64,000 nucleotides of DNA from an uncultured Kordiimonas sp. (GTDB lineage: Bacteria; Pseudomonadota; Alphaproteobacteria; Sphingomonadales; Kordiimonadaceae). Where the stretch lies: the NCBI GenBank assembly GCA_947500295.1, contig CANMRM010000001.1:310001-374000 (forward strand), read 5' to 3'. Position 1 is the first letter of the stretch; the number at the start of each line of letters is the position of its first letter. The notes below the pieces were generated by a model, which saw only the letters and a list, made by a program, of their open reading frames with translations, ran no database searches and had not been told where the DNA came from. Positions 16,798-45,105 of this stretch are shown piece by piece. The translations under genes were made by a program, and so were the position numbers.

Positions 16798-16807
16798 GAG
16801 GCAAAAA

Positions 16808-28402: not shown

Positions 28403-29341
28403 ATGATGAATTCTTACCCAAAGAAACTCTGGATTGCCTTGCTGGCAATGATTGCTGTTACCGGTCCGGTGATTGCGGCGGATGCAGACTGGCGGGCATT
28501 TGAGACTACAAGTGCGGATGGCACACGTATCGCCTATTATGTTGCCGGAGACCTCGCCGCCGGAACACCGCTATTTGTTCTTTCAGGTGGACCAGGCAGT
28601 GACCATCGCTACATGAGGGTTGGCGGCAGTTTTGATCGGATCGCCGAGGAGCGCCCGGTGATCATGTATGATCAGCGCGGCACGTCCCGGTCTGGCGCGG
28701 CACCAAGCGAGCCAAGACTTTCACAGTGGGCAGATGATGTAGAAGCCGTTCGCGCCGCCGTTGGCAGTCCAACCCTGCATATTCTCGGCCATTCTTTTGG
28801 CGGCATTGTCGCCATGAGTTATGCCGAGCGCTACACGGATCATCTGGCATCCATCATTTTCGCCAACTCCATGGGGACGTCGATTGCCAAAACAGAAAAC
28901 AGTCTTCAACAAACGTTTCCCGACCGCATAGATGAGTGGCAACGAAAGCGCGCGGCCCTGCCGCCCCGGTTCAAAGCCAGCGCCATAGATATCTTTACGT
29001 CACTGGAGTTTGTTGACCTGCATCGCCTTGAGGACTTTTTAGCGGCCATCGCCGACTATACATACAACATTGAAGTCAATAACGCGCTCAGGCGCGACAT
29101 GGCCAACCTTGATTACACCGATGTCGTTGCATCGCTTGAGGTGCCTACCCTTGTTCTGCATGGCAGATATGATCCGGTGATCACGCCTTCAACTGCCTGG
29201 AGGCTGCATAATGAAATGCCGGGATCAAACCTTGTTATCCTGCCGGCAACAGGCCATTTGCCCTTTGCAGAAGTGCCGGATGCCTTTGTTGGTGCTGTAC
29301 AGCAGTTTTTGCAGGAGGCCTCAACAGCGTCACAGGACTGA
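28403..29341 (+). CDS. Exported alpha/beta hydrolase, proline-iminopeptidase-like (S33)
   Basis: A 312-residue protein with a signal peptide cleaved near VIAA. The fold is clear: oxyanion segment LSGGPGSDHRYM (S33 enzymes have HGGPG), the S33 marker MYDQRGTSRS, the nucleophile elbow GHSFGG with Ser131, Asp257 in HGRYDPVI and His285 in ATGHLPF. It is likely a periplasmic aminopeptidase or ester/amide hydrolase. It shares a strand with, and is close to, the HbpS/GlcG-like gene. Its 3' end overlaps the kynureninase-like gene on the other strand by 12 bases. Export argues against it being the kynurenine formamidase missing from the neighbouring tryptophan genes. Confidence 0.87.
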   Translation: MMNSYPKKLWIALLAMIAVTGPVIAADADWRAFETTSADGTRIAYYVAGDLAAGTPLFVLSGGPGSDHRYMRVGGSFDRIAEERPVIMYDQRGTSRSGAAPSEPRLSQWADDVEAVRAAVGSPTLHILGHSFGGIVAMSYAERYTDHLASIIFANSMGTSIAKTENSLQQTFPDRIDEWQRKRAALPPRFKASAIDIFTSLEFVDLHRLEDFLAAIADYTYNIEVNNALRRDMANLDYTDVVASLEVPTLVLHGRYDPVITPSTAWRLHNEMPGSNLVILPATGHLPFAEVPDAFVGAVQQFLQEASTASQD

Positions 29342-30481
29342 CTTCAGCAGCTCATTAACGACCGCGGCATCTTCCTCTGGTGTATAGATATGAAAAGACA
29401 GTCTGAAGGTGTTGTCGCGCCGGTCAAATCTGCAATTTTCATGATTGAGCCCAGCCTCAAAAGCAGTTGATTGATCATCCGAAAGGTGGAGGCACAAGGT
29501 GCCTCCGCAATTCTGGGGCCGGCTCGCCATCAACGGCTCCGGATCCAACCCGTCCAGCGCTGTCTGCTTCAGGGCAAGGTTGTGAGACCGGAGGATTGCA
29601 AACCCGATCGTCTGCAATGCACGAAGCGACCCCAGGGCTGTTGCATACGGCGCAACAGACGGTGTTCCACCCCAGAACTTCCGGGCTGTGTTTTTCAGGC
29701 GCAGTGACCGGATATCAAACTCGAAAGGATCCTGATGGGAAAACCAGCCAACATGCTCCGGTGACAGAATTTGCGCATGGTCGGGTTCAACCCACAGATA
29801 TCCGGCTCCCGGGCCGCCACACAGCCATTTAACACAGGAACCGACAAGCGCGTCGATGCCCCATGATGCCGGTTTCACGTCGACAATTCCAGCCGATTGG
29901 GCGACGTCTACAATCGAGTGTATTCCATGTGTCCTGCATAGTTCGGCGATTTCAGAAACCGGCGAGATTATGCCCGTGTTGGAATGCACATGGGTAATAA
30001 GTACCGCGAGGACATCCGGTCCAAGATACCGTTGCCAAACGCCGATATCGTCGGCTGCCTCTGCTTTGTCAATGAGTACAAGTTCAAGCCCGGCCTTCTC
30101 AAGTACCTGGGCGGCAAACCCCATGGTCGGAAAAGCATTGGCGTGCATTATGATCTTGTGCCGCCCGTTTCTGGGTAACGAGACAAGATAATTTGAGAAG
30201 CCTGCTGACACACTGGGCTGGGGGCAAACGTCGCCAGCATCTACAGCAAACAAAGTTGCGAGTTCCGCGCAAAAGCCCTCAATGGTTTCCAGCCAATGTG
30301 GCCAGGCATCGCCGCCCTTGTCAGCCCAAGCCCCCAGGAAGCTCTCCTGGAGCGTTGACTGTGCACCTTTTGGCAGGCAGCCGACCGAATGGCTTAAAAA
30401 ATACCGGCCTTCCGGCACGAAAAACTGATTTGCCTCGTTTTTACTTGGACGCGGCACGAATTGTGTCCCTGACAACACCAT
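29330..30481 (-). CDS. Kynureninase-like class V PLP-dependent enzyme
   Basis: About 383 residues. The ATG at 30481 follows GGTGGAG; a GTG at 30490 is the alternative. Both overlap the dioxygenase gene, so the pair is coupled. Fold-type I class V motifs: LITHVHSNTG (as in kynureninase), the cofactor Asp in SIVDVAQSAG (Gln replaces the His of typical kynureninases), and the PLP lysine in GSCVKWLCGGPGAGYLWV. Typical kynureninases are 400-460 residues, so this one is short. Cleavage of kynurenine to anthranilate and alanine is the likely guess from context, but the altered motif leaves room for a different beta-lyase or aminotransferase activity. No formamidase gene is in the window. Confidence 0.78.
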   Translation of the reverse strand: MVLSGTQFVPRPSKNEANQFFVPEGRYFLSHSVGCLPKGAQSTLQESFLGAWADKGGDAWPHWLETIEGFCAELATLFAVDAGDVCPQPSVSAGFSNYLVSLPRNGRHKIIMHANAFPTMGFAAQVLEKAGLELVLIDKAEAADDIGVWQRYLGPDVLAVLITHVHSNTGIISPVSEIAELCRTHGIHSIVDVAQSAGIVDVKPASWGIDALVGSCVKWLCGGPGAGYLWVEPDHAQILSPEHVGWFSHQDPFEFDIRSLRLKNTARKFWGGTPSVAPYATALGSLRALQTIGFAILRSHNLALKQTALDGLDPEPLMASRPQNCGGTLCLHLSDDQSTAFEAGLNHENCRFDRRDNTFRLSFHIYTPEEDAAVVNELLKSVL

Positions 30482-31184
30482 ATTCTCCACCCCATCGGTC
30501 GGTCATCTCGTTCCTGATGTCCCATAGCTCGGGGAAAAACCGATGCCGGGCACCAGATTGCAGCAGGTCCACAGGTCGCCCTTTGAGGGATTTGGACCCA
30601 AGACCGATTGACCGATGAATCAGGAACAGGTGATCCCAGCGAAATTTCTGGAACAGTTCATCAAACTCGATCAGGGCTTCAGCCACCACATAGGCGTCGT
30701 CGTGGGTGTATCCGGCGTCATAGACATCTGCCACGGACCGACCTGTTGGCTCCAGGTAGCTTTCGACAAACGCCTTCCAGAGGTCTGGTGGCATTTTCAG
30801 CAACGTGCGGAAGCCGGGAGACTCCTGGCCGCTGCCATTGCCAAGTTGGAGCCGGATTTCCTGATACTCTCGCGGTGACATCGTCTCCAGCACGTCAAGC
30901 TGCTGGATCATCATGCGCTGCAGCCTGTGTACCCGGCCCATCAGGGTGACGACACGGTTGGTGTTTTTGTTCTTCAAAAACTCGATCACGTCGACGAGTG
31001 TGAAGCTCATGAGCTTCATCCATAATTCCTCGACCTGATGAACTATCTGAAACTGAAGCTCGTCTGCGGTGCAAAGCTCGGCCAACGGTTTCTGGCAGGT
31101 CAGCAGGCGGTCACATTTCAGGTAAACGCCATAATCAAGCATTTCCGGGTTTTCGATGCGGGCATAATAGTCTTCGCGCTTCAT
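30441..31184 (-). CDS. kynA: Tryptophan 2,3-dioxygenase family heme protein
   Basis: A 247-residue protein starting at an ATG after GGAGGA. Family marks: FQIVHQVEELWMKL at residues 45-58 with substrate-site His49, RVHRLQRMMIQQLDVLETMS, SPREYQEIRLQL, and FRWDHLFLIHRSIG with proximal heme His185. Two family motifs differ: the usual SGFQSxQFR reads SGQESPGFR, and the GTGGS loop after RxIGxK, which holds the substrate carboxylate and amine, is replaced by GSKSLKGRP. Canonical enzymes oxidise L-tryptophan to N-formylkynurenine. The divergence allows an altered substrate, as in the PrnB and MarE branches. It forms an operon with the kynureninase-like gene and is divergent from an Lrp/AsnC regulator. 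Confidence 0.85.
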   Translation of the reverse strand: MKREDYYARIENPEMLDYGVYLKCDRLLTCQKPLAELCTADELQFQIVHQVEELWMKLMSFTLVDVIEFLKNKNTNRVVTLMGRVHRLQRMMIQQLDVLETMSPREYQEIRLQLGNGSGQESPGFRTLLKMPPDLWKAFVESYLEPTGRSVADVYDAGYTHDDAYVVAEALIEFDELFQKFRWDHLFLIHRSIGLGSKSLKGRPVDLLQSGARHRFFPELWDIRNEMTDRWGGEYGVVRDTIRAASK

Positions 31185-31228
31185 CAGGAGTCCTCCATAT
31201 CGCCAACCCGGACTATAGGCTACAAAGC

Positions 31229-31254
31229 ATCGAACATTATCCTTTTAATTCGAT
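31229..31254. promoter_or_regulatory. Inverted repeat in the dioxygenase/Lrp divergent promoter region
   Basis: ATCGAA (31229-31234) and TTCGAT (31249-31254) are inverted copies 14 bases apart, in the 113-base region between the divergent dioxygenase and Lrp/AsnC genes. The AT-rich spacer fits an Lrp-type site, but the arms are short. Confidence 0.4.
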
Positions 31255-31297
31255 CTAATCGTGTATATTGAGAACAATGTTTTAATAAGGGTGAATA

Positions 31298-31759
31298 ATG
31301 AAGAACGAAATAGATTCTATTGACCTCAAGATCCTCCGTGAGCTGGAAGCGTCTGGCCGCACCTCTTTTGCTGCCCTTGGGGAAGCGGTTGGTCTCAGCA
31401 AAACGCCGTGTTGGGCTCGGGTTCGAGACCTAGAATCACACGGTGTGATCGAGGGATATAGCGCGCGGGTGTCGGCGGATGCGCTGGGTCTGACAATTCG
31501 GGCGCTTGTGCATGTTGTGGTTGGGTTTGATCGATATGAGGCATTTGAAGCGGCGATCCTGGCGCATCGGTCTGTGCGAAGCTGTCACGCTGTCACCGGT
31601 GAGTATGACTATGTGCTGGAAATTCTTGCCCCCGACATGGCGGCTCTGGATGAGCTTTTGCGCAATGAGCTGAGCCGCCTGCCCGGCGTCACCCGGTTCA
31701 ATACATCCATAACCACGCGCATGATAAAAAACGCCGGTTTCTATTCAACAATGATTTGA
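31298..31759 (+). CDS. Lrp/AsnC family transcriptional regulator, KynR-like by context
   Basis: A 153-residue protein. The N-terminal AsnC-type helix-turn-helix spans residues ~5-55 (IDLKILRELEASGRTSFAAL, LSKTPCWARVRDLESHGVIE). The RAM effector domain follows (IRALVHVVVGFDRYEAFEAA, SCHAVTGEYDYVLEILAPDM, and GVTRFNTSITTRMIK near the end). It is divergent from the dioxygenase/kynureninase-like operon. In Pseudomonas an Lrp/AsnC protein, KynR, controls the kynurenine genes in response to kynurenine; the same job here is an inference from position. Confidence 0.9.
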   Translation: MKNEIDSIDLKILRELEASGRTSFAALGEAVGLSKTPCWARVRDLESHGVIEGYSARVSADALGLTIRALVHVVVGFDRYEAFEAAILAHRSVRSCHAVTGEYDYVLEILAPDMAALDELLRNELSRLPGVTRFNTSITTRMIKNAGFYSTMI

Positions 31760-32501: not shown

Positions 32502-33854
32502 TTAGAATGTCAGAGAAAACTGCGCGCCCCCTCCTTCGCGGTTCGCGATACTGACAGCGCCGCCGTGAGCAATCATAACCTGGCGAGTAAGCGCCAGTCC
32601 GACACCACTGCCTTCTCTCTTGGTGGTGAAAAAAGGCACAAAAATCCGCTTGGCAATTTCGGCGGGAATACCTGGGCCATTGTCCGCCACCTCCAATGTA
32701 ACCCGTCCTCGTCTGTTCAGTCTTGCAACCAGCCAGACCTGCGCGTCCTCGCGCCCCAAAAGAGCTTGTCCGGCGTTTTGCAGCATATTGATCAAGACTT
32801 GTTCCAGCATGTCGCGATCGGCGGTGACATCAAGTTCAGAGGGTTCGACCTCAGTTGACAAGGTGACGCCGGCATCATTCCACTCTTTGTTGAACAATGT
32901 GGCGAGCTCGTCAAACATGTCCTGAAGCCGAATGGTTTGTTTGTCAGGCGGTGGCAACCGGGTGAGGCTGCGGTAGCTTGATACAAACTGGTTCAGTCGG
33001 TCAGACCGCCGTGCCACCGTGTTTACCGCGTCCTTTACATCGTTCAGCTCCGCAACCACTTCCGGATTGTCACTCACTTTTCCAGAGGCGTCATCAACAA
33101 GGTCAACGGCGGTTTTTGCCAACGAAGCCACCGGCGTAATTGAATTCATAATTTCGTGTGTGAGCACTCTTACCAAGTCTTGCCAAGCCTGCAGCTGGAC
33201 GACGTCAAGTTCCGACTGAATGTTCTGCAGACTGAACAGTTTTTCCGGCTTGCCATCAATTATTATTTTGGTCGAGACCAGCATCATTTTCTGTTCAACG
33301 CCGTCTGCGTCAAAGTCCACAAGCCGTCTCTCGCCGGGGTCGATTTTTGCCACCTCTTTTTGAAACGTGACGCCAAAGTGGGCAAGGTCATCCAGGTGGG
33401 TGGTCGGCGTGCTGCCGAACAGGCGTCGCGCAGAATTGTTCCAAACCGTCAGCGCTCCATCTGCATGCAGGGACATCAATGGCACAGGCACATGTTCGAC
33501 CAGCGCCTTGAGGTGTCGCAGCTCTTTTTCCTGCCCCGCCCGCACTTCCTGAAACCGTTTCAGGATATCGGTGAAAGTCTCGCCGAGCTCACCAAACCCG
33601 GCTCCAAGATCGTGCATCCTAAACCGCTGGCTGAAGTCAGCGTATCGGGCGGCATCCAAAAACCGGCTTACCTCGGCGTTGGTGCGCTGCACAAATCCAT
33701 AAACCTCGAACACCAAAAATACGAGGATGCAGAAAGTCAGGAAAGTGGCAGCATGATAACCCGGTAGCAAAAAGAGATAGCTGATGCCCACCAGCACGAG
33801 CATGATCAAAAACAGCCTGCCGGCAAGCAGTACACTGAATCGTTTAAAGCCCAT
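32502..33854 (-). CDS. Membrane sensor histidine kinase with PAS domain (NtrY-like)
   Basis: A 450-residue kinase. Two helices at residues ~10-30 and ~36-55 leave only a very short periplasmic loop, so it probably senses within or near the membrane. Then a HAMP-like segment, a PAS domain (~110-215, ALVEHVPVPLMSLHADGALT), the H-box LVRVLTHEIMNSITPVAS with His233, an N-box MLQNAGQALLG, G1 VADNGPGIPAEIAK and G2 GSGVGLALTRQVMIAHGG. Its start overlaps the response-regulator stop by 11 bases, so the two are coupled. The lack of a sensor domain recalls intramembrane-sensing kinases that work with ABC exporters. The cognate regulator is the NtrC-type protein upstream. Confidence 0.92.
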   Translation of the reverse strand: MGFKRFSVLLAGRLFLIMLVLVGISYLFLLPGYHAATFLTFCILVFLVFEVYGFVQRTNAEVSRFLDAARYADFSQRFRMHDLGAGFGELGETFTDILKRFQEVRAGQEKELRHLKALVEHVPVPLMSLHADGALTVWNNSARRLFGSTPTTHLDDLAHFGVTFQKEVAKIDPGERRLVDFDADGVEQKMMLVSTKIIIDGKPEKLFSLQNIQSELDVVQLQAWQDLVRVLTHEIMNSITPVASLAKTAVDLVDDASGKVSDNPEVVAELNDVKDAVNTVARRSDRLNQFVSSYRSLTRLPPPDKQTIRLQDMFDELATLFNKEWNDAGVTLSTEVEPSELDVTADRDMLEQVLINMLQNAGQALLGREDAQVWLVARLNRRGRVTLEVADNGPGIPAEIAKRIFVPFFTTKREGSGVGLALTRQVMIAHGGAVSIANREGGGAQFSLTF

Positions 33855-35265
33855 GTTTTTCCATCCTTCGATAGAGTGCTGCGCGTGTAATACCGAGCTC
33901 TTTAGCTGCGTGGCTGATATTGTAGCGATGCTTCTTCAGTGCTCCTGCAATAGCGTGCTTTTCAAGGCGCTCCAGATTGAGGTCCTCTGGCACTCCACTC
34001 TCATCCTGCCTGTCACCGCCATTGGACGCTTGAACCGCTTGGCCGCCGGCACTGCCGTGAGATATGTCGACGGCAAAGTCGCTGGCAACAAACGTGTCAT
34101 TCTCAGAGAGAATAACCGCGCGTTCTATCGCGTGGCGAAGAGCCCGCACATTGCCGGGCCAGCTGGAGTTCAAGAGGACATTCAGCGCGTCGGCCGACAG
34201 GTCTTTTACTGGTTTGTCGTATTTGCGGCAGTATTGCTCGACATAGTGGCGCGCAATCTCAGGGATGTCGTGTTGCCGATCGCGCAAAGGGGGTACATGG
34301 ACTTCCACTGTGTTCAGCCGGAACAATAGATCCTGTCTGAATTTGGCTTCATCCTTGAGCTTTTCGATGGGAACATTGGTTGCAGCAATGACCCGAACCT
34401 CAAATGGCACGGGTTTGTCTGACCCGACAGGAACAACCTGCCGTGTCTCAAGAACAGTTAACAGTTTGGCTTGCAGGTGCAGCGGCAGGTTTCCGATTTC
34501 ATCCAGAAAAAGGGTGCCGCCGTCTGCTGCCTGCAGGCGACCGATGCGGTCTTCTCGTGCATCGGTAAAAGCACCCTTTTTGTGGCCAAATAGTTCTGAT
34601 TCGAACAAGCTTTCTGTTACTGCTCCAAGATCAACCGACATGAAAATCTGACCAGCCCTGTTGGACAGGCGATGAAGTTCACGGGCAACAAGTTCCTTGC
34701 CCGTGCCGTTTTCCCCCAGGATCAGAACGTTTGCATCCGTGGGTGCCGTCCTCTGAATCACCGAGAGAACTTCCGCGATCGCCGGGCTATTGCCGAGAAT
34801 GGGCTGTGTGGGTGCACTGGCCACCGCCGCCAGCGCACGATTGGTTTTCTTCAGTTTCTGGGCCTCGCTTCGGCTGCGCCGCAACTTGACACTGGTGGAG
34901 AGGGTAGCGACCAGTTTTTCGTTTTGCCAGGGTTTCGCAATGAAGTCTGTCGCGCCTTTTTTCATGGCTTCCACGGCGACATTGACCCCGCCATGCGCCG
35001 TAATCATGATCACCACCGCTTCAGGATCGATGTCCATGATTTTGCCCAGCCACAGAAAGCCTTGCTCTCCTGACGATTCACCGGGTCCGAAGTTCATATC
35101 CAGCAGGATGGCATCAAATGAATGAGCGGCCATCAGAACCGGAATGTCGTTGGGATCGTTACAGGTAATGACTGTATCGAAGTGTCGCTTCAAGAGGAGC
35201 TTGACGGCGACAAGGATGTCTTCGTCGTCGTCGACAATCAGGATGGCGCCGCTGTGAGCCTGCAT
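33844..35265 (-). CDS. Sigma-54-dependent response regulator (NtrC family)
   Basis: A 473-residue protein. I use the ATG at 35265 with AGGAAAA upstream; an open frame continues 34 codons into the promoter but is not a plausible start. The receiver domain (residues 1-~125) has DDD at 12-14, phospho-acceptor Asp56 and Lys111. The AAA+ domain has Walker A GENGTGKE (184-191) and Walker B TLFLDE (251-256). The sigma-54 contact loop reads GAFTDA (231-236) rather than GAFTGA. The C terminus is a Fis-type helix-turn-helix (IAGALKKHRYNISHAAKELG then ITRAALYRRM). It is divergent from the HlyD-ATPase-five-permease operon, whose promoter is a -24/-12 element, so that operon is the evident target. Confidence 0.95.
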   Translation of the reverse strand: MQAHSGAILIVDDDEDILVAVKLLLKRHFDTVITCNDPNDIPVLMAAHSFDAILLDMNFGPGESSGEQGFLWLGKIMDIDPEAVVIMITAHGGVNVAVEAMKKGATDFIAKPWQNEKLVATLSTSVKLRRSRSEAQKLKKTNRALAAVASAPTQPILGNSPAIAEVLSVIQRTAPTDANVLILGENGTGKELVARELHRLSNRAGQIFMSVDLGAVTESLFESELFGHKKGAFTDAREDRIGRLQAADGGTLFLDEIGNLPLHLQAKLLTVLETRQVVPVGSDKPVPFEVRVIAATNVPIEKLKDEAKFRQDLLFRLNTVEVHVPPLRDRQHDIPEIARHYVEQYCRKYDKPVKDLSADALNVLLNSSWPGNVRALRHAIERAVILSENDTFVASDFAVDISHGSAGGQAVQASNGGDRQDESGVPEDLNLERLEKHAIAGALKKHRYNISHAAKELGITRAALYRRMEKHGL

Positions 35266-35296
35266 GGATTTTCCTAGTATTTCGGCGTTTTGAATC

Positions 35297-35357
35297 TGTT
35301 CAAAACCGTACACACTGTGTTCGAAATCGTACAGAAAAAAGTGTTCATATTCGAACA
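35297..35357. promoter_or_regulatory. Three activator sites TGTTC-N6-GWACA
   Basis: Three 16-bp elements lie in tandem: TGTTCAAAACCGTACA (35297-35312), TGTTCGAAATCGTACA (35318-35333) and TGTTCATATTCGAACA (35342-35357). Their starts are 21 and 24 bases apart, about two helix turns. The third is a perfect TGTTC/GAACA inverted repeat; the other two have one mismatch. They are centred about 119, 98 and 74 bases before the predicted sigma-54 transcription start, the normal place for NtrC-type enhancer sites, and 39-84 bases before the regulator's own start codon. Confidence 0.8.
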
Positions 35358-35395
35358 AAAAACACATTATTCTATACTATTCAATAGGTTGGGTG

Positions 35396-35412
35396 TTGGC
35401 ACAGGGCTTGCT
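35396..35412 (+). promoter_or_regulatory. Sigma-54 (-24/-12) promoter
   Basis: TTGGCACAGGGCTTGCT matches the sigma-54 consensus TGGCAC-N5-TTGC, with the invariant GG (35398-35399) and GC (35410-35411) exactly 10 bases apart. The predicted start of transcription is near 35423, giving a leader of about 48 bases to the adaptor ATG at 35471. Together with the three upstream sites and the divergent NtrC-type regulator this is a complete enhancer-dependent promoter. Confidence 0.85.
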
Positions 35413-35470
35413 GATACAAGCTCAAGCGCGGTCACAGAGCATTGATCCACCAGTAAGAGACACGACAGCT

Positions 35471-36814
35471 ATGGAAAAAAAACAGACAAGCGGGAACACC
35501 ATTTCAATGTATGGCGGTAAAGCAGGCGGCACAGACCGCCCAGCATCTGGTGCGGGCATGGACCGCAAGATTGACAAGAAAAAAACACCCTGGAAACCTC
35601 TCGGCATAGGTGCTGGCGTCATGGCCCTTGCCGCCCTCGTCTGGTTCATCGTTCAGGATGCTGCTGCCGGGCGTACTTTCCGCGTCAATGAAAGCCGTAT
35701 TGTCATTTCGACCGTTAGCGAGGGAACATTCGAAGACTTCATCCCCATCCGCGGTCGCGTCACGCCGCTGAAAACGGTTTTTCTGGATGCGATTGAAGGT
35801 GGGCGGGTCGAACGGGTTCTCGTGGAAGATGGCGCCACCATGCAGAAGGGTGCTTTGATTGTTGAACTGTCTAACACAGGCCTGCAGCTCGATGTGACAC
35901 GCAACGAGGCTTTGGTGACCGAGCAGCTCAACAATATGCGCACAATTGAATTGCAGCTTGAGCAAAACCGCCTGTCGCACAAGCGCAACCTTGTTGAAAT
36001 AAATTATCAAATCAAACGCCTGACCCGGTTGGTGGAGCGGGAACGCGAGCTGATAAAAACCAATGCGATTTCGCAGGCACAAATCGACCAGACGGAAGAT
36101 GAGCTTGAATATTTTATCAACCGCCGCGAGGTGACCCTTGAAAGCCAGGCTACGGATGCGAGACTGCAGGAAACGCAGCTGGCGTCGCTGAAAACCGCCG
36201 GTGATCAGCTCGAGCGCAATCTCTCCTTTGCCCAGAAAAACCTTGACGCGTTGAATGTTCGGGCGCCCGTGGACGGAAAACTTTCAGGCTTCAATGTCGA
36301 GGTTGGCCAAAGCATCGCGCGGGGCGGCAGGCTGGGCCAAATCGATGACCCGGACAATTACAAACTTACGGCCAATATTGATGAATTTTATCTGGGGCGT
36401 GTTGACCTTGGCCAGGAGGCCGTGTTTGAGCGCGGCGGTCGCAGCTATCGCATGACGGTTGCGAAAATTTACCCCCAGGTTACCAACGGCCAGTTTGAGG
36501 TTGATCTGGTGTTTGCCGACGCTCAGCCGGAGGACATCCGGCGTGGTCAAACCCTGCAATCCAAGCTGACCCTGGGGGACGCAACAAGTGCGGCTCTCAT
36601 TCCCAACGGTGCCTTTTATCAGGACACCGGCGGCAACTGGATTTTTGTGGTGACGGCAGATGGCACCCAGGCTGTGAAAAGAACGGTCCGGCTGGGACGG
36701 CGCAATTCACGCTTTATCGAAGTGGTTGAAGGCCTGGACGTTGGGGAACGGGTGGTTACCTCCCCTTACAGCAGCTTTATTGACATGGATCGGCTGAGGC
36801 TGACCGGGGACTAA
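35471..36814 (+). CDS. HlyD/MacA-type periplasmic adaptor of the five-permease system
   Basis: A 447-residue protein. I take the ATG at 35471, downstream of the predicted transcription start; ATGs at 35507 and 35558 remain possible. A long cytoplasmic start (~40 residues, basic near DRKIDKKK) precedes one membrane helix (LGIGAGVMALAALVWFIVQD). Then come the first lipoyl half (GGRVERVLVEDGATMQKGAL), a long coiled coil (residues ~125-260), the second lipoyl half (LNVRAPVDGKLSGFNVEVGQ), a beta-barrel, and a membrane-proximal domain ending RVVTSPYSSFIDMDRLRLTG. It belongs with the ATPase that starts 106 bases on. The partner outer-membrane channel is not in the window. Confidence 0.88.
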   Translation: MEKKQTSGNTISMYGGKAGGTDRPASGAGMDRKIDKKKTPWKPLGIGAGVMALAALVWFIVQDAAAGRTFRVNESRIVISTVSEGTFEDFIPIRGRVTPLKTVFLDAIEGGRVERVLVEDGATMQKGALIVELSNTGLQLDVTRNEALVTEQLNNMRTIELQLEQNRLSHKRNLVEINYQIKRLTRLVERERELIKTNAISQAQIDQTEDELEYFINRREVTLESQATDARLQETQLASLKTAGDQLERNLSFAQKNLDALNVRAPVDGKLSGFNVEVGQSIARGGRLGQIDDPDNYKLTANIDEFYLGRVDLGQEAVFERGGRSYRMTVAKIYPQVTNGQFEVDLVFADAQPEDIRRGQTLQSKLTLGDATSAALIPNGAFYQDTGGNWIFVVTADGTQAVKRTVRLGRRNSRFIEVVEGLDVGERVVTSPYSSFIDMDRLRLTGD

Positions 36815-36920
36815 GAAACTAAACTGCGGATATGGGTTTACCTAGGTCCGGGAAACGACAGAAGGAATGGCCGGAAAGCTCACGGAGGGCTGGCCGAAGG
36901 CAAAAGAAAGGAAACGCGGC

Positions 36921-37604
36921 ATGCTTAAATTGCACAATCTCTCCAAGGTCTATCGGACCGACGAGGTTGAAACCGTGGCGCTTGATAATGTGAATATCGA
37001 AATCGAGTCGGGAGAATTCGTGGCGATCATGGGCCCGTCAGGTTGCGGCAAGTCAACACTGCTGAATATCGTGGGCATGCTCGATTCCTCCTCCAGCGGA
37101 GACTATGTCTTCATGGGGGAAAACGTTGCGGGCTATCCCGAGTCGAAGCTCAGCAACATCCGCAAGCAGAATATTGGCTTCATTTTCCAGTCCTTCAACC
37201 TGATTGATGAGTTGACGGTCGAAGAAAACATCGAACTGGCGTTGCTCTACCACAATATTCCGGCCAACGTCCGCCGCGAGCGGGTGGCTAAAGTTATGGA
37301 CAAAGTCGGTATCGCACACCGCGCCAAGCACATGCCAAGCCAGCTATCGGGTGGGCAGCAACAGCGGGTTGCTGTTGCGCGTGCAGTTGTGGGCGATCAG
37401 GCAATGATCCTTGCAGATGAGCCGACCGGCAACCTCGACAGTGCGCATGGTCAGGAAGTGATGGAAATGCTTCAGGCGCTGAACGCGGAAGGCACAACCA
37501 TTGTCATGGTGACTCACAGCCCGGCACACGCGGATTATGCGCGCCGCACCATCAATCTGTTCGACGGTCATGTGGTGACGGAAAACCTGCGGGCCGCGGT
37601 TTAA
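36921..37604 (+). CDS. ABC transporter ATP-binding protein, MacB/LolD type, of the five-permease system
   Basis: A 227-residue ATPase. The ATG at 36921 has AAAGGAAA upstream; an in-frame ATG at 36867 would add 18 basic residues of poor fit. It has Walker A GPSGCGKST, Q-loop FIFQSFNLID, signature LSGGQQQR, Walker B AMILADEPTGNLD and the H-loop MVTHSPA. It is followed after 50 bases by the first of five large permeases and is the only ATPase in the operon, so it must be shared if all five are active. The sequence is of the LolD/MacB group that powers mechanotransmission. Confidence 0.94.
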   Translation: MLKLHNLSKVYRTDEVETVALDNVNIEIESGEFVAIMGPSGCGKSTLLNIVGMLDSSSSGDYVFMGENVAGYPESKLSNIRKQNIGFIFQSFNLIDELTVEENIELALLYHNIPANVRRERVAKVMDKVGIAHRAKHMPSQLSGGQQQRVAVARAVVGDQAMILADEPTGNLDSAHGQEVMEMLQALNAEGTTIVMVTHSPAHADYARRTINLFDGHVVTENLRAAV

Positions 37605-37654: not shown

Positions 37655-40120
37655 ATGTCACAGCTATTGATTGGGTTGAGGGTTTTAAAACGTCAGGGAC
37701 TTTATGGTTTGATGGCCGTCCTTGGGTTGGCCATTGGCCTTGCCGTTGCGGTGATTGCCTTGTTGTTTACATGGCAGGAAACGCATTATGACAGCCATAT
37801 CGAAAACGCAGACCGCATTTTTATTGTTGATAGCCGGATTACACGGCCTGGTCGTACAGAAGCCATCTCCGCTCAGACACCTGGTGCACTGGTTCGTGCG
37901 CTTGATGAACAGGTGCCTGGTCTGGAGTCGGCGGCGCGCGTGCTCCGCCAATGGTCGACCATCGCAATTGATGATCGATTTAACTTCAATCTCGAAATCC
38001 TGGGCGTGGATGACGCCTGGCTTGAGATGATCGATTTGCCCATCATCGAAGGGTCGCGCGATGGGTTTAACGCGGATACGACTGCGGCACTTGTCTCCGA
38101 AAACCTGGCTGAACGCCTTTTTGGCAACGGACCGGTTTTGGGTGAAAGCTTCCTCCTTGATGGCACTGCCATGTCGGTGGTTGGCGTTTATAAAAACTTC
38201 CCAGCCACCAGCCACATGGTAATGGACTTGATCGTTCCGGAGCGGACGCCAGCAATCGCAGGACGCGGCACTGATTTCGACAGCGACTGGCAGCGCTTCT
38301 CTGCCTTTACCTACGTGCGGCTCGCGGAAGGTGTTTCCGTTTCGTTGGCCGAGCAGGCTGTTGAAGATATTATTCACCAGAATTTCCAAACAGCTAGATG
38401 GTTGCCAGCCGGCGGCAATGTTGCTGATTTGATTGATAATTCCTTACAGTCGCTCTCGGCCCTGCATTTAAATGACCGCACCTACGATTGGGGCGTACGG
38501 CCACCCGCCGACAAGTTGAAACTCACTGTCTTTGCTGCGATTGCTGTCCTGATTGTTGTGATTGCTTGCGTCAACCATATCAATCTTTCGACTGTGCGCT
38601 CGATTGAACGAGCCCGCGAAGTTGCGCTGCGCAAAATCCTGGGGGCCGGGCGTCACCAGCTTGTCGTGCAATTCCTTTTGGAGGCAACTGTGCTCGCCTG
38701 TGTCGCCCTTGTACTGGCGCTAACGCTTGTGGAGCTATCAAGCGATTTTGCCAATGACCTTTTGCAAACGCGGCTCGACCTCTCCAACCTCACTGAGCCC
38801 AGTTTCCTGCTTTGGCTTTTAGGCCTGGTTGCGTTTGTTGTGCTGGCCGCCGGTGTTTATCCCGCTTATATCGTGAGTGCGGTCATGCCCGGCAAAATCC
38901 TCGCGAGCCATGCCCGCGGCGCGCGCGGCAGCAAAGGGCTGCGCTCTGTTTTGGTCGTGTTTCAGTTTGCCGTTTCCATCTGTCTGGCTATCGGCGCAGC
39001 GGTCATCTGGAGCCAGCTAAAGTATGCGCGTCAGGCCGATCTTGGTTTCAATCCTGAAAATGTGATGCTCCTGTACGGCGTTGGTCGGGCCCCTGAGAGC
39101 GCAATTAGACTGACGGGCAGGCTTGATAAATCCATCAGTGGCCGCCCCGGTATTCTTGCTGTCTCAGCAAGCAACAGCTCCCCCTCTTGGGGATTTGTGC
39201 CAGAAGTTGACGTGCGGCTCCAGGCAGACGCCCCAGAGGCAGCCCAAACGATGGGACGCATTTCAGTCGACCTTGATTTCTTCCCCATGATGGGCATTGA
39301 GCCTGTTGCCGGGCGCCTGTTCAGCGAAGATTTCGGCATGGACCGGGTCCAGTGGGAGTATCAGGAACGCCAGGGCCAGGTGATGCCGGTTGTGCTCAAT
39401 CAGCGCGCAGCGGCAAGTCTTGGCTATGTCCTGCCAGAAAACGCGGTTGGGCAGCAAATGCAGTTCACTGTGTCCGAGGCCGATGACCGAGTAGCAGAGA
39501 TTGTTGGTGTCATCCCTGATGTTCATTACAAGTCACTCAAAGACGCTATCCAGCCCATGATTTTCTATCCTGATCCGGGTGCTTTCAGTGTGATGATGGT
39601 GCGGATCGACCCTAACCAGCGAGAGGTGGCGCTTCAGTCAATTGAAGAGGGCTGGTCGGCGGTGATGAGCAATCAGGCGGTGAGCAGTGACTTTTTGTCG
39701 GCCGCCCTCGCTGAGCAATATGACAGTGAAGCGCAGGAATTGAAGACGGTAACCGTTCTTTCTGCGCTTGGCATTCTGATTGCTGTTTTTGGCCAGTATG
39801 GGCTGGCAGCATACAGCGCGCAGTCACGGCGTAGGGAAATCAGTATCCGCAAGGTCTTGGGGGCTCGTGTGCGAGATGTGCTCCAGCTGTTCATATGGCA
39901 ATTCTCGAAACCTGTCTTCGTGGCGATGGTTGTCGCCTGGCCGGTGGCTTTCTATGCCATGACGCTGTGGCTGGAGAATTTCGTCTATCGGGTTACACCC
40001 AACCCCCTGTGGTTTGTGCTTGCCGGCATTGTGGCGTTGGCAGTTGCGTTGCTGACGGTCGCTGGACATGCGTTCAAAGCCGCTCGCGCTGCTCCGGTGG
40101 AGGCGCTCAGGTACGAATAA
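37655..40120 (+). CDS. Large FtsX/MacB-type ABC permease, tandem copy 1
   Basis: An 821-residue double-unit permease with eight helices: one near the N terminus (GLMAVLGLAIGLAVAVIALL), a periplasmic MacB core domain (~45-280), three helices (KLTVFAAIAVLIVVIACVNH and two more, to ~405), a fifth helix (VLVVFQFAVSICLAIGAAVI), a second core domain (~450-690), and three final helices. Coupling segments IERAREVALRKILGAGRHQL and RRREISIRKVLGARVRDVLQ precede the helix pairs in each half. It ends APVEALRYE. Because each half resembles a whole MacB transmembrane unit, one protein could work as a pseudo-dimer with two copies of the ATPase. It is the most divergent of the five at its N terminus. Confidence 0.92.
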   Translation: MSQLLIGLRVLKRQGLYGLMAVLGLAIGLAVAVIALLFTWQETHYDSHIENADRIFIVDSRITRPGRTEAISAQTPGALVRALDEQVPGLESAARVLRQWSTIAIDDRFNFNLEILGVDDAWLEMIDLPIIEGSRDGFNADTTAALVSENLAERLFGNGPVLGESFLLDGTAMSVVGVYKNFPATSHMVMDLIVPERTPAIAGRGTDFDSDWQRFSAFTYVRLAEGVSVSLAEQAVEDIIHQNFQTARWLPAGGNVADLIDNSLQSLSALHLNDRTYDWGVRPPADKLKLTVFAAIAVLIVVIACVNHINLSTVRSIERAREVALRKILGAGRHQLVVQFLLEATVLACVALVLALTLVELSSDFANDLLQTRLDLSNLTEPSFLLWLLGLVAFVVLAAGVYPAYIVSAVMPGKILASHARGARGSKGLRSVLVVFQFAVSICLAIGAAVIWSQLKYARQADLGFNPENVMLLYGVGRAPESAIRLTGRLDKSISGRPGILAVSASNSSPSWGFVPEVDVRLQADAPEAAQTMGRISVDLDFFPMMGIEPVAGRLFSEDFGMDRVQWEYQERQGQVMPVVLNQRAAASLGYVLPENAVGQQMQFTVSEADDRVAEIVGVIPDVHYKSLKDAIQPMIFYPDPGAFSVMMVRIDPNQREVALQSIEEGWSAVMSNQAVSSDFLSAALAEQYDSEAQELKTVTVLSALGILIAVFGQYGLAAYSAQSRRREISIRKVLGARVRDVLQLFIWQFSKPVFVAMVVAWPVAFYAMTLWLENFVYRVTPNPLWFVLAGIVALAVALLTVAGHAFKAARAAPVEALRYE

Positions 40121-40144: not shown

Positions 40145-42568
40145 ATGCTCAATAATTATATCATAACGGCACTCAGGAATATTTTGAAAAATCGGCTTTA
40201 TGCCTTGATCAACATTGCTGGTTTGGCAATCGGGCTTGCGGTTTATGTCGCGGGCACCGTGCTTGTTGACTATGAGCGCAGCCATGACCGTAATTTTGCG
40301 AATTTTGACAGAATCTATACGGTCTCCTCGCTTTTCTCTCCTTCCATGAACATAGGATTTCGGGCAACCGATGGTGCCTATTCGGCTTTTGTACCCATTA
40401 TGAAAGCAAGCATCAGCGAGCTGGAGTATGCGGCTCAAATCCGCCGGGATGAATTCCTTCTCAGCATCGGCGAGGATGATTTTTATCAGAATATTCGTTT
40501 CACATCGCCCGATTTCATGCGGATTTTCGACTTCAACTATATTCATGGTGATGCGACAGCGATTGACCGCCCTGATGGCCTGATGATCACGCGCAGTACA
40601 GCGATGCGCCTGTTTGGGACCATAGATGTGCTGGGGCGATCGGCTCGTGCCGACCACAGCGAAGAACTTACCGTTACCGCAGTTGTTGAAGACCTGCCTG
40701 CCAACACGCATTTCAATTCTTCTCTTGTGGGCACTTCCAAATTTGAAGCTGTAGGAAACGTCGAAATCCTGAAAGCGTTGAAGGGCTATGATGCTGACCA
40801 GAATTGGGGCGATCTTTCCATTAACAACACGACGTTTGCGCTGTTGCCTGAAGGCCGGGATGCAACCTGGTTGCAGGCGGCTGTCAGCACAGCCTATGAC
40901 GAGCATTACCCTGAAGACGTCAAGGAAAACATTTCCGGTCTTGAAGTCGCGCACCTAAGCAAAGCCAATACGTTTTTGTGGGACACTGTCGGGCTTCCCG
41001 TACTCACCAGTATCTCAATTCTCGGCATTCTGGTTCTTGTCGTCGCGTGCGTGAATTACACCAATCTGGCGATTGCACAAAGTCTTGGCAGGGCTCGCGA
41101 AGTTGGGCTCAGGCGCACCATGGGGGCAAATCGCACACAGCTTCTGACGCAGTTTCTGACAGAAAGCCTGGTGACTGCAACTGTTTCCATGTTCATGGCG
41201 CTGGTTTTGCTAGAGGCTGTTATTCCTGCGTTCAATCAGCTTTTAGGTAAAGCGGTGAGCTTGAATTACGGCGAACTGCTGCCGTGGCTTTTGAGTACCG
41301 TTGTGGTGGTCGGGGTTGTCTCCGGTGGATATCCTGCCTTCCTGATCGCTAGAACGGACCCCATTTCCGCCCTCAGGGACGGCGCAAAAGGTGGCAGGGC
41401 AGGCGGGTTCCTCCGGTCTGCCATGATTGGCCTCCAGTTTGTCATCGCGATCTTCATGCTGGCAACGGTGATGGTGATGTATTTCCAGAACCAGCGTGTA
41501 CGTGAAACGATCAACCTTTTCCCGACCAGTCAAATCTACGTGCTTGAACGCCTGACAACTGAAGGTGTGGAATCCCGGGCCGAGACACTTCGCAGTGAGC
41601 TGCTGCGTGTGCCGGGCGTCGCCAATGTCAGCTTTTCCAACCAGGTGCCTTTCGAACAGAGCAACAAAACCTATGACGTTTCCCCGGTTCCAGGCGACGA
41701 AAGCCAGAAAATAAGCCTCAACCGAATTCGCATCGACCATGATTTTCTGACGACCTACGACATTCCCCTTGTTGCAGGACGTGACCTCTCGCGTGACATC
41801 AGCCTTGATGCGCCGGGAGATGACGCACAGACCATCAATGTTGTCATCAATGAACTTGCTGCATCCCGCTTAGGTCTTGGTTCAGCAAGCGAAGCCATCG
41901 GAAAGAGCTTCTTTAGTCTGGTTGATGAAGGGAGTGACAGACAACATATCGTTGTTGGTGTGATGCCGGACCAAAACTTCCTGGGGCTTCACAATTCGGT
42001 TAAACCCTTCGTTTTTTATGTCTCGGAAAACCGGTTTTACGCCTCTCTGCGCATAAAAACAGACAATATGGAAGGCACGATAGAAGGGGTTCATACGGTT
42101 TGGGACAATGTCGTGCCGGATTTCCCCATACAGGCGAAGTTTCTGAACGAAACCTTTGAAGGCGTTTACACGATATACCGATCCGTCAACTTTGCACTTT
42201 CAGGTTTTGCAGCGATTGCCCTGTCACTGGCCTTGATTGGATTGTTCGGGCTTGCGGCCTTCATGGCTGAACAGCGCACGCGTGAAATAGGCATACGAAG
42301 GGTGCTGGGTGCGAGTGTTCCACAGTTGGTGCGGCTTTTGATCTGGCAGTTTTCGAAACCGGTCGTGTGGGCGCTCGCAATTGCCCTGCCGCTCTCCTAT
42401 TTCGCTGCAGGCCAGTATCTCAATGTTTTCGCCGACAGGATAAACCTGCCGATCGGGATTATCGCTGTCGCTGGCATCATTGGAATCGCAGCAGCCTGGT
42501 CGGTGGTTGCATCCCATGCGATGTGGGTCGCACGTGCCAATCCAATCACGGCCCTTCGAAATGAGTAA
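40145..42568 (+). CDS. Large FtsX/MacB-type ABC permease, tandem copy 2
   Basis: An 807-residue permease with the same eight-helix, two-core layout. The N terminus LYALINIAGLAIGLAVYVAG is the first helix. Coupling segments are LGRAREVGLRRTMGANRTQL and QRTREIGIRRVLGASVPQLV. The first core ends near SGLEVAHLSKANTFLWDTVG; the second begins RVRETINLFPTSQIYVLERL. It ends PITALRNE, where the other four end in RYE. It starts 24 bases after copy 1, with GAGGAAG upstream. The periplasmic cores differ strongly from its neighbours while the helices and coupling loops are conserved, suggesting different cargo or partner surfaces. Confidence 0.92.
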   Translation: MLNNYIITALRNILKNRLYALINIAGLAIGLAVYVAGTVLVDYERSHDRNFANFDRIYTVSSLFSPSMNIGFRATDGAYSAFVPIMKASISELEYAAQIRRDEFLLSIGEDDFYQNIRFTSPDFMRIFDFNYIHGDATAIDRPDGLMITRSTAMRLFGTIDVLGRSARADHSEELTVTAVVEDLPANTHFNSSLVGTSKFEAVGNVEILKALKGYDADQNWGDLSINNTTFALLPEGRDATWLQAAVSTAYDEHYPEDVKENISGLEVAHLSKANTFLWDTVGLPVLTSISILGILVLVVACVNYTNLAIAQSLGRAREVGLRRTMGANRTQLLTQFLTESLVTATVSMFMALVLLEAVIPAFNQLLGKAVSLNYGELLPWLLSTVVVVGVVSGGYPAFLIARTDPISALRDGAKGGRAGGFLRSAMIGLQFVIAIFMLATVMVMYFQNQRVRETINLFPTSQIYVLERLTTEGVESRAETLRSELLRVPGVANVSFSNQVPFEQSNKTYDVSPVPGDESQKISLNRIRIDHDFLTTYDIPLVAGRDLSRDISLDAPGDDAQTINVVINELAASRLGLGSASEAIGKSFFSLVDEGSDRQHIVVGVMPDQNFLGLHNSVKPFVFYVSENRFYASLRIKTDNMEGTIEGVHTVWDNVVPDFPIQAKFLNETFEGVYTIYRSVNFALSGFAAIALSLALIGLFGLAAFMAEQRTREIGIRRVLGASVPQLVRLLIWQFSKPVVWALAIALPLSYFAAGQYLNVFADRINLPIGIIAVAGIIGIAAAWSVVASHAMWVARANPITALRNE

Positions 42569-42618: not shown

Positions 42619-45105
42619 ATGTTTCATAATTACCTGCAGGTGGCTTTCAGGAATCTGGTCGCGAACAGGCTATATAGCTTTATCAATATCATTGGCCTGG
42701 CGGTTGGCCTGGCCGCCTGCGTTATGATTGCCTTGTTTGTGCGCGATGAGCTTTCCTACGACAAACACTGGGATAAAGCTGACAGCATCTACCGGCTGCA
42801 CACCACCTTCAATATTCCTGGGCGGGAGCCCATGCACAGTGTCCATGCTGCGGGCCCTGCGAAACACGCTTTTCTCGAGTATTTCGAACAAGATGTTGTT
42901 GCCACGAGCCGCATCCGCACTTTCTCGACAGTTGTAAAGCACGGTGACCAAGCGCTTTTTGAGTCTATTCAATGGACCGACCCGGAAACTGCTGACATTT
43001 TCAACTTCGACGTGATTGCGGGCAGCATGAAGGATGCCCTTGACGACAAGTCCAGTATTGCTGTCGACCGATCGTTTGCAGAGCGCTACTTCGGCACCAC
43101 CGAAGCGCTCGGTGAAGTTGTCAATGTCAACATCTATGACATCACGCGGGACTATAAAGTCGCCGCCGTTTTTGAAGATTTTCCTGAAAACACTGTGCTC
43201 GACATTCAGGCATTTGTTGCCATTGATGAAGCGGATTTTGTCAATCAGCGCTGGGAGTTTGAACAATGGTACAGCACCAATGTTTATATGTTCTTTGAAC
43301 TGAAACCGGGTATCAGTATCGACAGCATTAACGATCGATCTGCAGCTTTCCTGGATACAGCAATCCAGATTGACCCTGATGCCGGTGCTTTCACCAAAGC
43401 ATCAGACTTTCTTGAGGTGCGCGCCCAAAGCATCAAAGACATTCAGCTGTTCCCGCAAGGCCGCAACGGCTCCGAAATGAAACCAACCGGCAGTATGACC
43501 AGTGTTATTATTTTCGTGGCGATTGCGGTGCTCATTCTGTTGATTGCATGCATCAATTTCATGAACCTGGCTACGGCCAAATCAACGCAGCGCGCCCGAG
43601 AAGTGGCGCTGCGCAAAGTGCTTGGGGCTCATCGTGGCCAGCTAGTAGCGCAGTTTATCGGCGAGTCCGTCCTAGTCGCCCTTATTGGTCTGGCGGTCGG
43701 TGTCGCTCTTGTGGAGTTGTTGATAAATCCGTTTAGTGATTTTATCGGAAAGTCGCTGGCGCTGGATTATTCCGACGGCGCCACCATTGCGCTGCTTTTG
43801 GGTTTGGTTGCCTTTGTGGGCGCGGCTGGCGGTGCCTACCCAGCGCTCGTGCTTTCTGGGTTTTTACCAGCGCGTGTGTTGAAGGCCAATAAGTCTGCTG
43901 AAACCAGTGGCTCGGCATCCTTGCGGAATGCGCTGGTGATTACCCAGTTTGCTATTTCCATCGGTTTGATTGTGGCAACCAGCGTTGTCTATGGCCAACG
44001 CCTGTACGCCACTTCGAAAGACCCGGGGTTTTCAAAGGAAAACATTTTAGTAATCACGAACCTCAGCCGCTCGGGCATGCGAGACAAACAAGAGGCGCTC
44101 AGGCAGCAAGTTGAGCAAATTCCAGGTGTTCTGAAAACAAGCCTTGCCCCCGACACACCGGCAAACGGGAATACGGGCAACACCAACCTGATCCGCGAAG
44201 GCGAGAGCGACAAGGAAAGCATGCTGATTGGCCGACAGGTCGTCGATCATGATTTCTTCGACCTTTATGACGTCGAACTTTTGGCGGGCCGTTTTTATGA
44301 TCGAGCCCGTGAAACAGACGGTACGCCACTGGAAGAGAATGCAACAGACGGCGAACAGCAGGTGGGCACACTCATCCTCAATGAGGCAGCTTCGTACCGC
44401 ATGGGCTTTGCTTCACCAACCGCTGCAATAGGCGAACGCGTACGCATGGGCCTTGGCCCCAATCGCGAGGCTATGATGGAAATAATCGGTGTTGTCCGTG
44501 ACATGCAATTTCAGTCCATGCGCGAGCCGATGCGCCCGGAGATGTATCAGCTGCGAACGGATTTTTATCTGGACCTGTCGATCAAGTTTGAAGGCGATGC
44601 GCAGCCAATTCTTCGGGAAGTGGAAGCCATCTGGCGCGGGCTCGCGCCCGAGGTGCCGTTCGATTATGGCTTCATTGATGACCGCATAGAGGAGGAGTTT
44701 GCGCGCGAAGAACAGCAATCTGTATTGCTTGCCGTGTTTGCGGGCCTCGCGATTGTGATCGCCTGCATGGGATTATACGGCCTTGCTTCCTTCACCGCCG
44801 AGCGGCGCACAAAGGAAATCGGAATCCGTAAAGTGATGGGGGCAAGCGTATTTGATATTGTGCGCCTGCTTATCTGGCAGTTCTCGAAACCTGTATTGGT
44901 TGCCAACCTGATTGCCTGGCCGCTTGTGGCTTACGGCATGGTCAGTTGGCTCGAGAGTTTCCCTTACCGTCTGGATAGCTGGATTATCGTGCCGCTTTGC
45001 GTCGTTGCGGGTTTGATTGCCCTGATGATCGCCTGGGCAACTGTTGGCGGTAATGCGGCACGGGTGGCACGTGCAAACCCGATCAAAGCACTGCGGTACG
45101 AATAA
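42619..45105 (+). CDS. Large FtsX/MacB-type ABC permease, tandem copy 3
   Basis: An 828-residue permease starting after GAGGAAG. It opens with VANRLYSFINIIGLAVGLAA, the family's typical first helix, and VRDELSYDKHWDKADSIYRL leading into the first core. Coupling segments are TQRAREVALRKVLGAHRGQL and RRTKEIGIRKVMGASVFDIV. The last helices start PVLVANLIAWPLVAYGMVSW, nearly the same as in copy 5. It ends PIKALRYE. The 50-base gap before it holds a small hairpin (42581-42596) that could adjust expression between copies 2 and 3. Confidence 0.92.
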   Translation: MFHNYLQVAFRNLVANRLYSFINIIGLAVGLAACVMIALFVRDELSYDKHWDKADSIYRLHTTFNIPGREPMHSVHAAGPAKHAFLEYFEQDVVATSRIRTFSTVVKHGDQALFESIQWTDPETADIFNFDVIAGSMKDALDDKSSIAVDRSFAERYFGTTEALGEVVNVNIYDITRDYKVAAVFEDFPENTVLDIQAFVAIDEADFVNQRWEFEQWYSTNVYMFFELKPGISIDSINDRSAAFLDTAIQIDPDAGAFTKASDFLEVRAQSIKDIQLFPQGRNGSEMKPTGSMTSVIIFVAIAVLILLIACINFMNLATAKSTQRAREVALRKVLGAHRGQLVAQFIGESVLVALIGLAVGVALVELLINPFSDFIGKSLALDYSDGATIALLLGLVAFVGAAGGAYPALVLSGFLPARVLKANKSAETSGSASLRNALVITQFAISIGLIVATSVVYGQRLYATSKDPGFSKENILVITNLSRSGMRDKQEALRQQVEQIPGVLKTSLAPDTPANGNTGNTNLIREGESDKESMLIGRQVVDHDFFDLYDVELLAGRFYDRARETDGTPLEENATDGEQQVGTLILNEAASYRMGFASPTAAIGERVRMGLGPNREAMMEIIGVVRDMQFQSMREPMRPEMYQLRTDFYLDLSIKFEGDAQPILREVEAIWRGLAPEVPFDYGFIDDRIEEEFAREEQQSVLLAVFAGLAIVIACMGLYGLASFTAERRTKEIGIRKVMGASVFDIVRLLIWQFSKPVLVANLIAWPLVAYGMVSWLESFPYRLDSWIIVPLCVVAGLIALMIAWATVGGNAARVARANPIKALRYE

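Follow-up and report, generated by a model that had tools for sequence, protein, structure and literature searches.

A tandem palindromic operator and a sigma-54 type promoter between a two-component system and a five-permease exporter operon in an uncultured Kordiimonas

In the genome of an uncultured Kordiimonas sp., the genes of a two-component system and of an ABC exporter diverge from a short intergenic region that contains three similar palindromes and a -24/-12 promoter. This arrangement raises the question of whether these elements connect the two systems and whether the connection is confined to the adjoining operon. The window analyzed here is a stretch of 64,000 nucleotides (GCA_947500295.1, contig CANMRM010000001.1, positions 310,001 to 374,000), to which coordinates refer unless another contig is given. 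Judged from sequence comparisons, the region very probably provides both the enhancer and the sigma-54 promoter for a regulon under two-component control.

The divergent region and its neighboring genes

The palindromes and the promoter occupy the 205 bp between the starts of the regulator gene (35265, minus strand) and the adaptor gene (35471, plus strand). The features of the locus are as follows.

32502 to 33854, minus strand: sensor histidine kinase (PF02518, HATPase), with the H-box HEIMNSITP at residue 233
33844 to 35265, minus strand: NtrC-type response regulator with REC, sigma-54 AAA+ and Fis-type HTH domains (PF00072, PF00158, PF25601, PF02954)
35297 to 35312, plus strand: operator site 1, TGTTCAAAACCGTACA, exact match to TGTTC-N6-GWACA
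35318 to 35333, plus strand: operator site 2, TGTTCGAAATCGTACA, exact match to the same motif, tandem-pair core
35342 to 35357, plus strand: operator site 3, TGTTCATATTCGAACA, exact match to the same motif, accessory
35396 to 35412, plus strand: sigma-54 type -24/-12 promoter, TTGGCACAGGGCTTGCT, no mismatches
35471 to 36814, plus strand: HlyD/RND-type periplasmic adaptor (PF13437, PF16576; best named match the DarC model, with a score under the cut-off)
36867 to 37604, plus strand: ABC ATPase of the DarD/MacB/LolD type (PF00005)
37655 to 40120, plus strand: duplicated FtsX/MacB permease 1 (two MacB_PCD, two FtsX)
40145 to 42568, plus strand: duplicated FtsX/MacB permease 2 (two MacB_PCD, two FtsX)
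42619 to 45105, plus strand: duplicated FtsX/MacB permease 3 (two MacB_PCD, two FtsX)
45117 to 47549, plus strand: duplicated FtsX/MacB permease 4 (two MacB_PCD, two FtsX)
47594 to 50107, plus strand: duplicated FtsX/MacB permease 5 (two MacB_PCD, two FtsX)

The first-pass annotation had described the flanking genes as an NtrC-type regulator and the HlyD adaptor of an exporter with five permeases. Pfam domains agree with this description: the REC, sigma-54 AAA+ and Fis-type HTH matches of the regulator all exceed their cut-offs, and each permease, 807-837 amino acids long, has the internal duplication. The ATPase matches NF038007 from residue 19 on, and its true start may lie about 54 bases further in. 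The genome contains no second gene close to it; the next best match is 48% identical. Elsewhere in the window, at 14975-17998, an ATPase gene whose product is 48% identical to that of the exporter is followed by two shorter ORFs that look permease-like by eye. Near the kinase, at 29330-31759, translations read by eye resemble kynureninase, tryptophan 2,3-dioxygenase and Lrp/AsnC.

The three predicted copies of TGTTC-N6-GWACA, at 35297, 35318 and 35342, are all exact and are the only exact matches in the window. Of 20,000 dinucleotide-preserving shuffles of the intergenic 205 bp, 21 contained at least one site and none contained two or more. When two mismatches are allowed, the motif falls to chance level in the window (90 observed, 87 expected). 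The consensus promoter said to face the exporter operon proved to be the sole match without mismatches to TGGCAC-N5-TTGCW in the window. It has the GG-N10-GC build of a -24/-12 element, and the genome contains one sigma-54 gene. The site centers given earlier, about -119, -98 and -74, hold for a predicted transcript start near 35423, 12 bases past the GC of the -12 element. The TGGC lies 79 bp past the start of site 2, a distance of 76-81 bp in most orthologues (range 56-101 bp). A consensus scan for a sigma-70 promoter of the divergent regulator gene found none.

Conservation of the pair and its recurrence at other genes

The adaptor was searched for in 79 genomes (the own genome, genus, family and order), which gave 48 strong matches (E < 1e-100). 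Upstream regions were taken for 47 of these from 46 genomes, leaving out an adaptor fragment (G029:C81). Two TGTNC-N6-GNACA palindromes 20-24 bp apart and a downstream -24/-12 element are present, with at most two mismatches in total, in 43 of the 47 regions. None of 940 controls shuffled in two-base blocks reaches even four or fewer mismatches for pair and promoter. The earlier reading had hinged on retention of the 16-mers at orthologous loci, and sites and promoter are indeed retained there. The regions without the full unit are two at contig ends (L031, L298), L306 and L304. Genome G012 has one adaptor copy with the unit (L305) and one without it (L306), and L304 possesses the tandem pair and lacks a good promoter.

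The spacing of the pair is 21 bp in 29 of the 43 regions, 20 bp in nine, 22 bp in three and 24 bp in two. Across the 29 regions spaced by 21 bp, the information content is 1.8-2.0 bits at the TGT..C and ACA columns and 0.02-0.47 bits at the 30 columns preceding site 1. In 22 of the 43 regions, a third site (at most one mismatch) follows site 2 at exactly 24 bp, which rules out the three sites as the unit and leaves the pair as its core; in L029 and L030 the remaining pair is itself spaced by 24 bp. The general operator is TGTNCG-N4-CGNACA in tandem. Spacing, motif copies and gene order had been proposed to define the logic of the regulon from DNA alone. The sites, promoter and geometry are conserved, as this proposal holds, but the unit is a pair and the regulon exceeds the exporter operon.

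Single sites in the own genome are not above background (19 strand matches vs. 26 for the reversed pattern), and tandem pairs were therefore used for the scans. At the strict 21-bp spacing, the own genome contains three tandem pairs and none of the reversed pattern. With a free gap of 0-30, six pair matches at five places are found among the matches listed. At each of the four places outside the window, the pair precedes one lone gene for a duplicated permease, and a -24/-12 element lies 78-88 bp past the start of the second site. A protein search detected ten permeases of the exporter's type in the genome, five in the operon and five scattered. This search added the fifth scattered gene, at C1:1290259-1292688, upstream of which are two sites 20 bp apart with one mismatch each, and TTGGCATGACACTTGCG 90 bp past the second site. 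Because the five scattered permeases each have their own operator and -24/-12 element, the window promoter is one of six in the regulon. Every permease found thus has either the operon's or its own operator and -24/-12 element, so that all ten sit behind six promoters of one build. The five scattered frames are full length and share 30-40% identity with permease 3, and no homologue of the operon ATPase was found in the stretches of 5.4-18 kb around them.

Within the family, a tandem pair (gap 0-30) was found in at least 25 of 29 genomes, two of which (G004, G008) contain another palindrome only; among the matches listed, the reversed control gave one match per strand, in one genome. No TGTNCG-type pair appears among the matches listed for G004, G008 and G024, the three genomes of the family that lack an adaptor orthologue. 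In G012, G016 and G022, the adaptor is present and the strict pair is absent among the matches listed: the sites of G012 and G016 have one mismatch, and in G022 the contig ends. Places away from the exporter comprised, among the matches listed, 38 from the family list and two from the own genome. Excluding L243, L245 and L246 left 37 non-exporter pairs in the family count. L243 has no -24/-12 element with fewer than four mismatches. L245 and L246, from genomes lacking the exporter adaptor, were seen to contain paired TGTACNGATCNGTACA-like palindromes 24-25 bp apart, which are apparently another operator; in L246, a -24/-12-like match with one mismatch lies 114 bp from them.

Among the matches listed, all 37 non-exporter pairs are followed by a -24/-12 element (at most two mismatches) 76-90 bp from the last site, and their sites are spaced by 20, 21, 22, 23, 31 or 33 bp. 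A 10.5-bp periodicity of the operator-promoter distances is not claimed, because these distances are simply clustered and other periods score nearly equally. The genes behind the 37 pairs are, among the matches listed, an intact permease in 30 cases, a fragment in one, none of the kind in one and a small ORF in five. The fragment, at L239, is a permease-like remnant of 66 codons and is all that the pair drives there (tblastn). At L253, operator and -24/-12 element are present with no gene of the exporter type downstream, and the two loci are possible stages of decay.

In the five small-ORF loci (L230, L231, L236, L242, L244), the operator and -24/-12 element are followed by an RBS-like stretch and an ORF of 31-42 codons. 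The same holds in a sixth genome (L264), where a site and the promoter each have one mismatch. The small ORF is arginine-rich with an invariant core, RR-x-RR, near its end, and a profile search detected it in six of the 29 family genomes (E of 1.1e-12 or better). Elsewhere this search gave no convincing match, and the best in the genome of the window had an E of 0.23. A check of the window and four loci for small ORFs with arginine-rich ends gave no credible candidate, and Pfam had no match for the two small ORFs tested. By eye, the small-ORF loci adjoin a convergent PilZ-like gene and a gene for a PlsC-like acyltransferase. Guesses at the role of the small ORF are a substrate of the exporter, a signal or a small regulator.

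The motif search proposed in the first-pass annotation for -24/-12 promoters of related genomes thus finds the unit within the order and family, and the unit recurs in other phyla as well. An operator-only scan of GTDB with TGTNCG-N4-CGNACA-N5-TGTNCG-N4-CGNACA gave at least 117 stretches, of which 80 were made into loci, some sharing a genome. Among the matches listed, their sources include Bacteroidota, Alpha- and Gammaproteobacteria, Acidobacteriota, Myxococcota, Zixiibacteriota and Neomarinimicrobiota, with names such as Sphingobacterium, Parapedobacter, Larkinella, Porphyromonas levii, Halioglobus, Woeseiaceae and Sphingosinicella. A homologue of the adaptor, ATPase, permease, regulator or kinase (BLASTP E < 1e-5 to the window's proteins) lies within 2.5 kb in 75 of the 80 loci among the matches listed, some of these neighbors being an ATPase or regulator alone and hence less specific; an adaptor or permease does so in 68 of the 80. 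In 65 of the 80 loci, the first of these homologues is found downstream, in a direction of the promoter (adaptor 33, permease 19, ATPase 11, regulator 2, all among the matches listed). A -24/-12 element with at most two mismatches occurs within 160 bp in 57 of the 80 (again among the matches listed) vs. 11% of 4,000 random positions drawn from the same loci.

Five of the 80 loci lie away from genes of the system among the matches listed. In two from Larkinella (L115, L118), the tandem operator and a -24-like element were observed before small secreted-looking proteins and not an exporter; the one tested, of L115, matches DUF3244. The match in L123, near 7907, lies by eye inside a short, CRISPR-like direct-repeat array and is probably due to chance. 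Of the other two, one sits, by eye, at the edge of a contig and the other next to a Dps-like gene.

In 22 genomes reached via operator loci, every one contains one to five pairs and the reversed control none; because a pair was the criterion for selecting these genomes, information comes only from the control and from counts greater than one. Among plasmid-borne relatives of the regulator, that of Pseudoalteromonas has one clear site before an adaptor, that of Parabacteroides has two sites, 21 bp apart with one mismatch each, before a lone permease, and those of Hymenobacter and Persicobacter have no clear pair. Of 385 genomes sampled evenly from the class, six contain the strict pair and one the reversed control. 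One of the six pairs is that of the own genome, and three others (L066, L067, L068) are accompanied by homologues of the adaptor and the regulator. Of the remaining two, L069 is inside a repeat-protein gene and L059 is known from its sequence. The exporter-operator system is widespread, yet not common.

The likely binder and comparison with known systems

The regulator of the window is the likely binder of the tandem operator because of its HTH pattern, its adjacency and its co-occurrence with the sites. Of the 35 full-length regulators in the group, 34 share the pattern N[ILM][ST]x[AT]AxxLG[ILV][TS]RxxLYR[RK] in the C-terminal HTH, the window's among them. The sole exception is from Persicobacter, which also lacks the tandem pair. 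The genome has eight further places matching the AAA+ part of the regulator, and the pattern is absent from every ORF in the loci of these eight other NtrC-type paralogues, one of which could still be the binder. The sigma-54 contact loop of the window's regulator (residue 231) is GAFTDA, a variant of GAFTGA listed among those expected to remain active in the available text of PMC4641369. The relatives have GAFTDA, GAFTGA or others such as GSFTDA and GAFTNA. GAFTDA was rejected as a signature of the regulator family, as several operator-adjacent members carry GAFTGA.

The adaptor, ATPase and duplicated permeases resemble the darobactin exporter DarBCD, matching the DarC model NF038010 (228.7 bits, cut-off 450), the DarD model NF038007 (272.1 bits, cut-off 375) and the DarB model (86-131 bits, cut-off 700), each below its cut-off. 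DarBCD has one permease, whereas the operon in the window has five. The acidobacterial duplicated orphan permeases (ADOP) are internally duplicated and scattered and have no neighboring ATPase. Internal duplication and several scattered permease genes without an ATPase neighbor are also found here, and the permeases score 239-319 bits with the ADOP model TIGR03434, below its subfamily cut-off of 622.3. An ATPase neighbor is absent from the fetched stretches around the five scattered permeases and present for those of the operon. In contrast to ADOP, half of the ten permeases are encoded in the operon that includes the ATPase, and the operator is common to all ten.

The closest precedent for the logic of the regulon, in the part of the paper available, is PrsK/PrsR (Haft, 2006; PMC1569441). 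That system likewise consists of an NtrC-type response regulator and a kinase, with scattered single-gene targets recognized by a DNA pattern, and its activator motif lies on average 62.8 bp before the -24/-12 element. According to the same portion of the text, PrsR motif 1 is a 17-mer ending in TTTACA and the targets are PEP-CTERM proteins; here, in contrast, the operator is TGTNCG-N4-CGNACA in tandem and the targets are permeases. PrsR is the best named model for the window's regulator, at 354.7 bits and below the equivalog cut-off of 502.6.

Sigma-54 promoters are enriched before FtsX-type permeases of COG0577 in Gammaproteobacteria, Opitutia and Bacteroidia, a link that the accessible sections of the report call the first evidence of its kind (PLoS One 2025; PMC12316311). 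In contrast to the present system, those sections describe no activator, operator, geometry or regulon of scattered permeases and name no Alphaproteobacteria for COG0577. Motifs of Desulfovibrio enhancer-binding proteins also possess TGT and ACA half sites, which are 9, 11 or 12 bp apart in the available text and 10 bp apart here (PMC4641369). The words FtsX and HlyD are both absent from the text of PMC4641369, and the portion of Francke (2011; PMC3162934) available mentions neither HlyD nor a permease. The first-pass annotation had assigned the operator to no described system. A full-text literature search, with subscription papers and preprints outside its scope, gave no description of an operator of the TGTTC-N6-GWACA type among the matches listed.

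Proposed mechanism, alternatives and significance

In the proposed mechanism, the kinase (32502-33854) would phosphorylate the response regulator (33844-35265), whose Fis-type HTH dimers would bind the tandem TGTNCG-N4-CGNACA palindromes. In NtrC, two HTH dimers at palindromes about two turns apart nucleate the AAA+ ring. Here, the ring would similarly be seeded by two dimers separated by two helical turns, joined in this lineage by a third; it would touch the sigma-54 polymerase waiting at 35396-35412 and open the promoter. The adaptor, ATPase and five permeases would then be made. Through the same operator-promoter unit, the same signal would add the five scattered permeases to the pool, and these probably work with the single adaptor and ATPase of the operon. 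Binding of the sites by the regulator, dependence on RpoN and sharing of the ATPase are what we infer from the sequence patterns, and the exported substrate would be a peptide-like or envelope-active compound.

The explanation that the palindromes arose by chance in an A+T-rich spacer can appeal to the background level of the motif in the window when two mismatches are allowed. It deserves next to no credence, as two sites never arose in the 20,000 shuffles and the arrangement is conserved in 43 of 47 orthologous regions, which together rule it out. It is very improbable that the palindromes belong to a different regulator, either an NtrC paralogue or a repressor, while the adjacent regulator acts elsewhere. 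The eight other AAA+ matches in the genome provide candidates, and Desulfovibrio enhancer-binding proteins also use TGT/ACA half sites in the available text of PMC4641369. Against this, the pair and a related regulator gene adjoin in many loci of distant phyla, the three family genomes without the adaptor also lack such pairs among the matches listed, and the HTH helix of the window's regulator is conserved along with the motif.

The sites might instead chiefly serve the regulator's own gene, by autorepression or autoactivation, with the exporter link being secondary. Site 1 and the start codon of the regulator (35265) are 31 bp apart, and the pair abuts the regulator start in L066 and L067. 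This explanation is nonetheless distinctly improbable: the promoters of the scattered permeases share the operator although the fetched stretches contain no match to the regulator gene, and the distance to the exporter-side -24 element is tightly kept. The two roles can coexist. A further alternative concerns only the scattered permeases, which could be decayed or independent and make no use of the operon ATPase, the operator being a relic of duplication. Every copy consists of a promoter plus a gene, as duplication of a promoter-gene unit predicts, and L253 and L239 have a promoter with no permease or with the 66-codon fragment. Such a relic is unlikely, since all five frames in the own genome are full length at 30-40% identity with operator and promoter kept, and the 5.4-18 kb around them contain no homologue of the operon ATPase. 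The two-component regulon, with this region as its enhancer and sigma-54 promoter, is preferred over these alternatives.

A broader proposal, more tentative and somewhat less likely to be right than wrong, is that of an exporter built from modules, with a pool of ten exchangeable duplicated permeases serving a single adaptor and ATPase, and all switched on by one two-component system via the tandem operator shared across phyla. An arginine-rich peptide of 31-42 amino acids would also belong to the regulon in one clade of Kordiimonas and could be a substrate or signal.

What is new here is the presence in one genome of ten permeases, five of them scattered and each of these with its own tandem operator and -24/-12 element. 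The name ADOP leaves open which ATPase the orphan permeases use, and the arrangement in Kordiimonas suggests that it is the one of the operon. An operator and a probable activator are now given for a widespread and poorly described class of FtsX/MacB-type exporters, and regulon members can therefore be read from DNA in many phyla. The small-peptide candidate and the defined set of promoters offer an entry to the inducing signal and the substrate. Overall, the tandem operator and sigma-54 promoter probably let one sensor-regulator pair switch on the exporter together with the scattered permeases.
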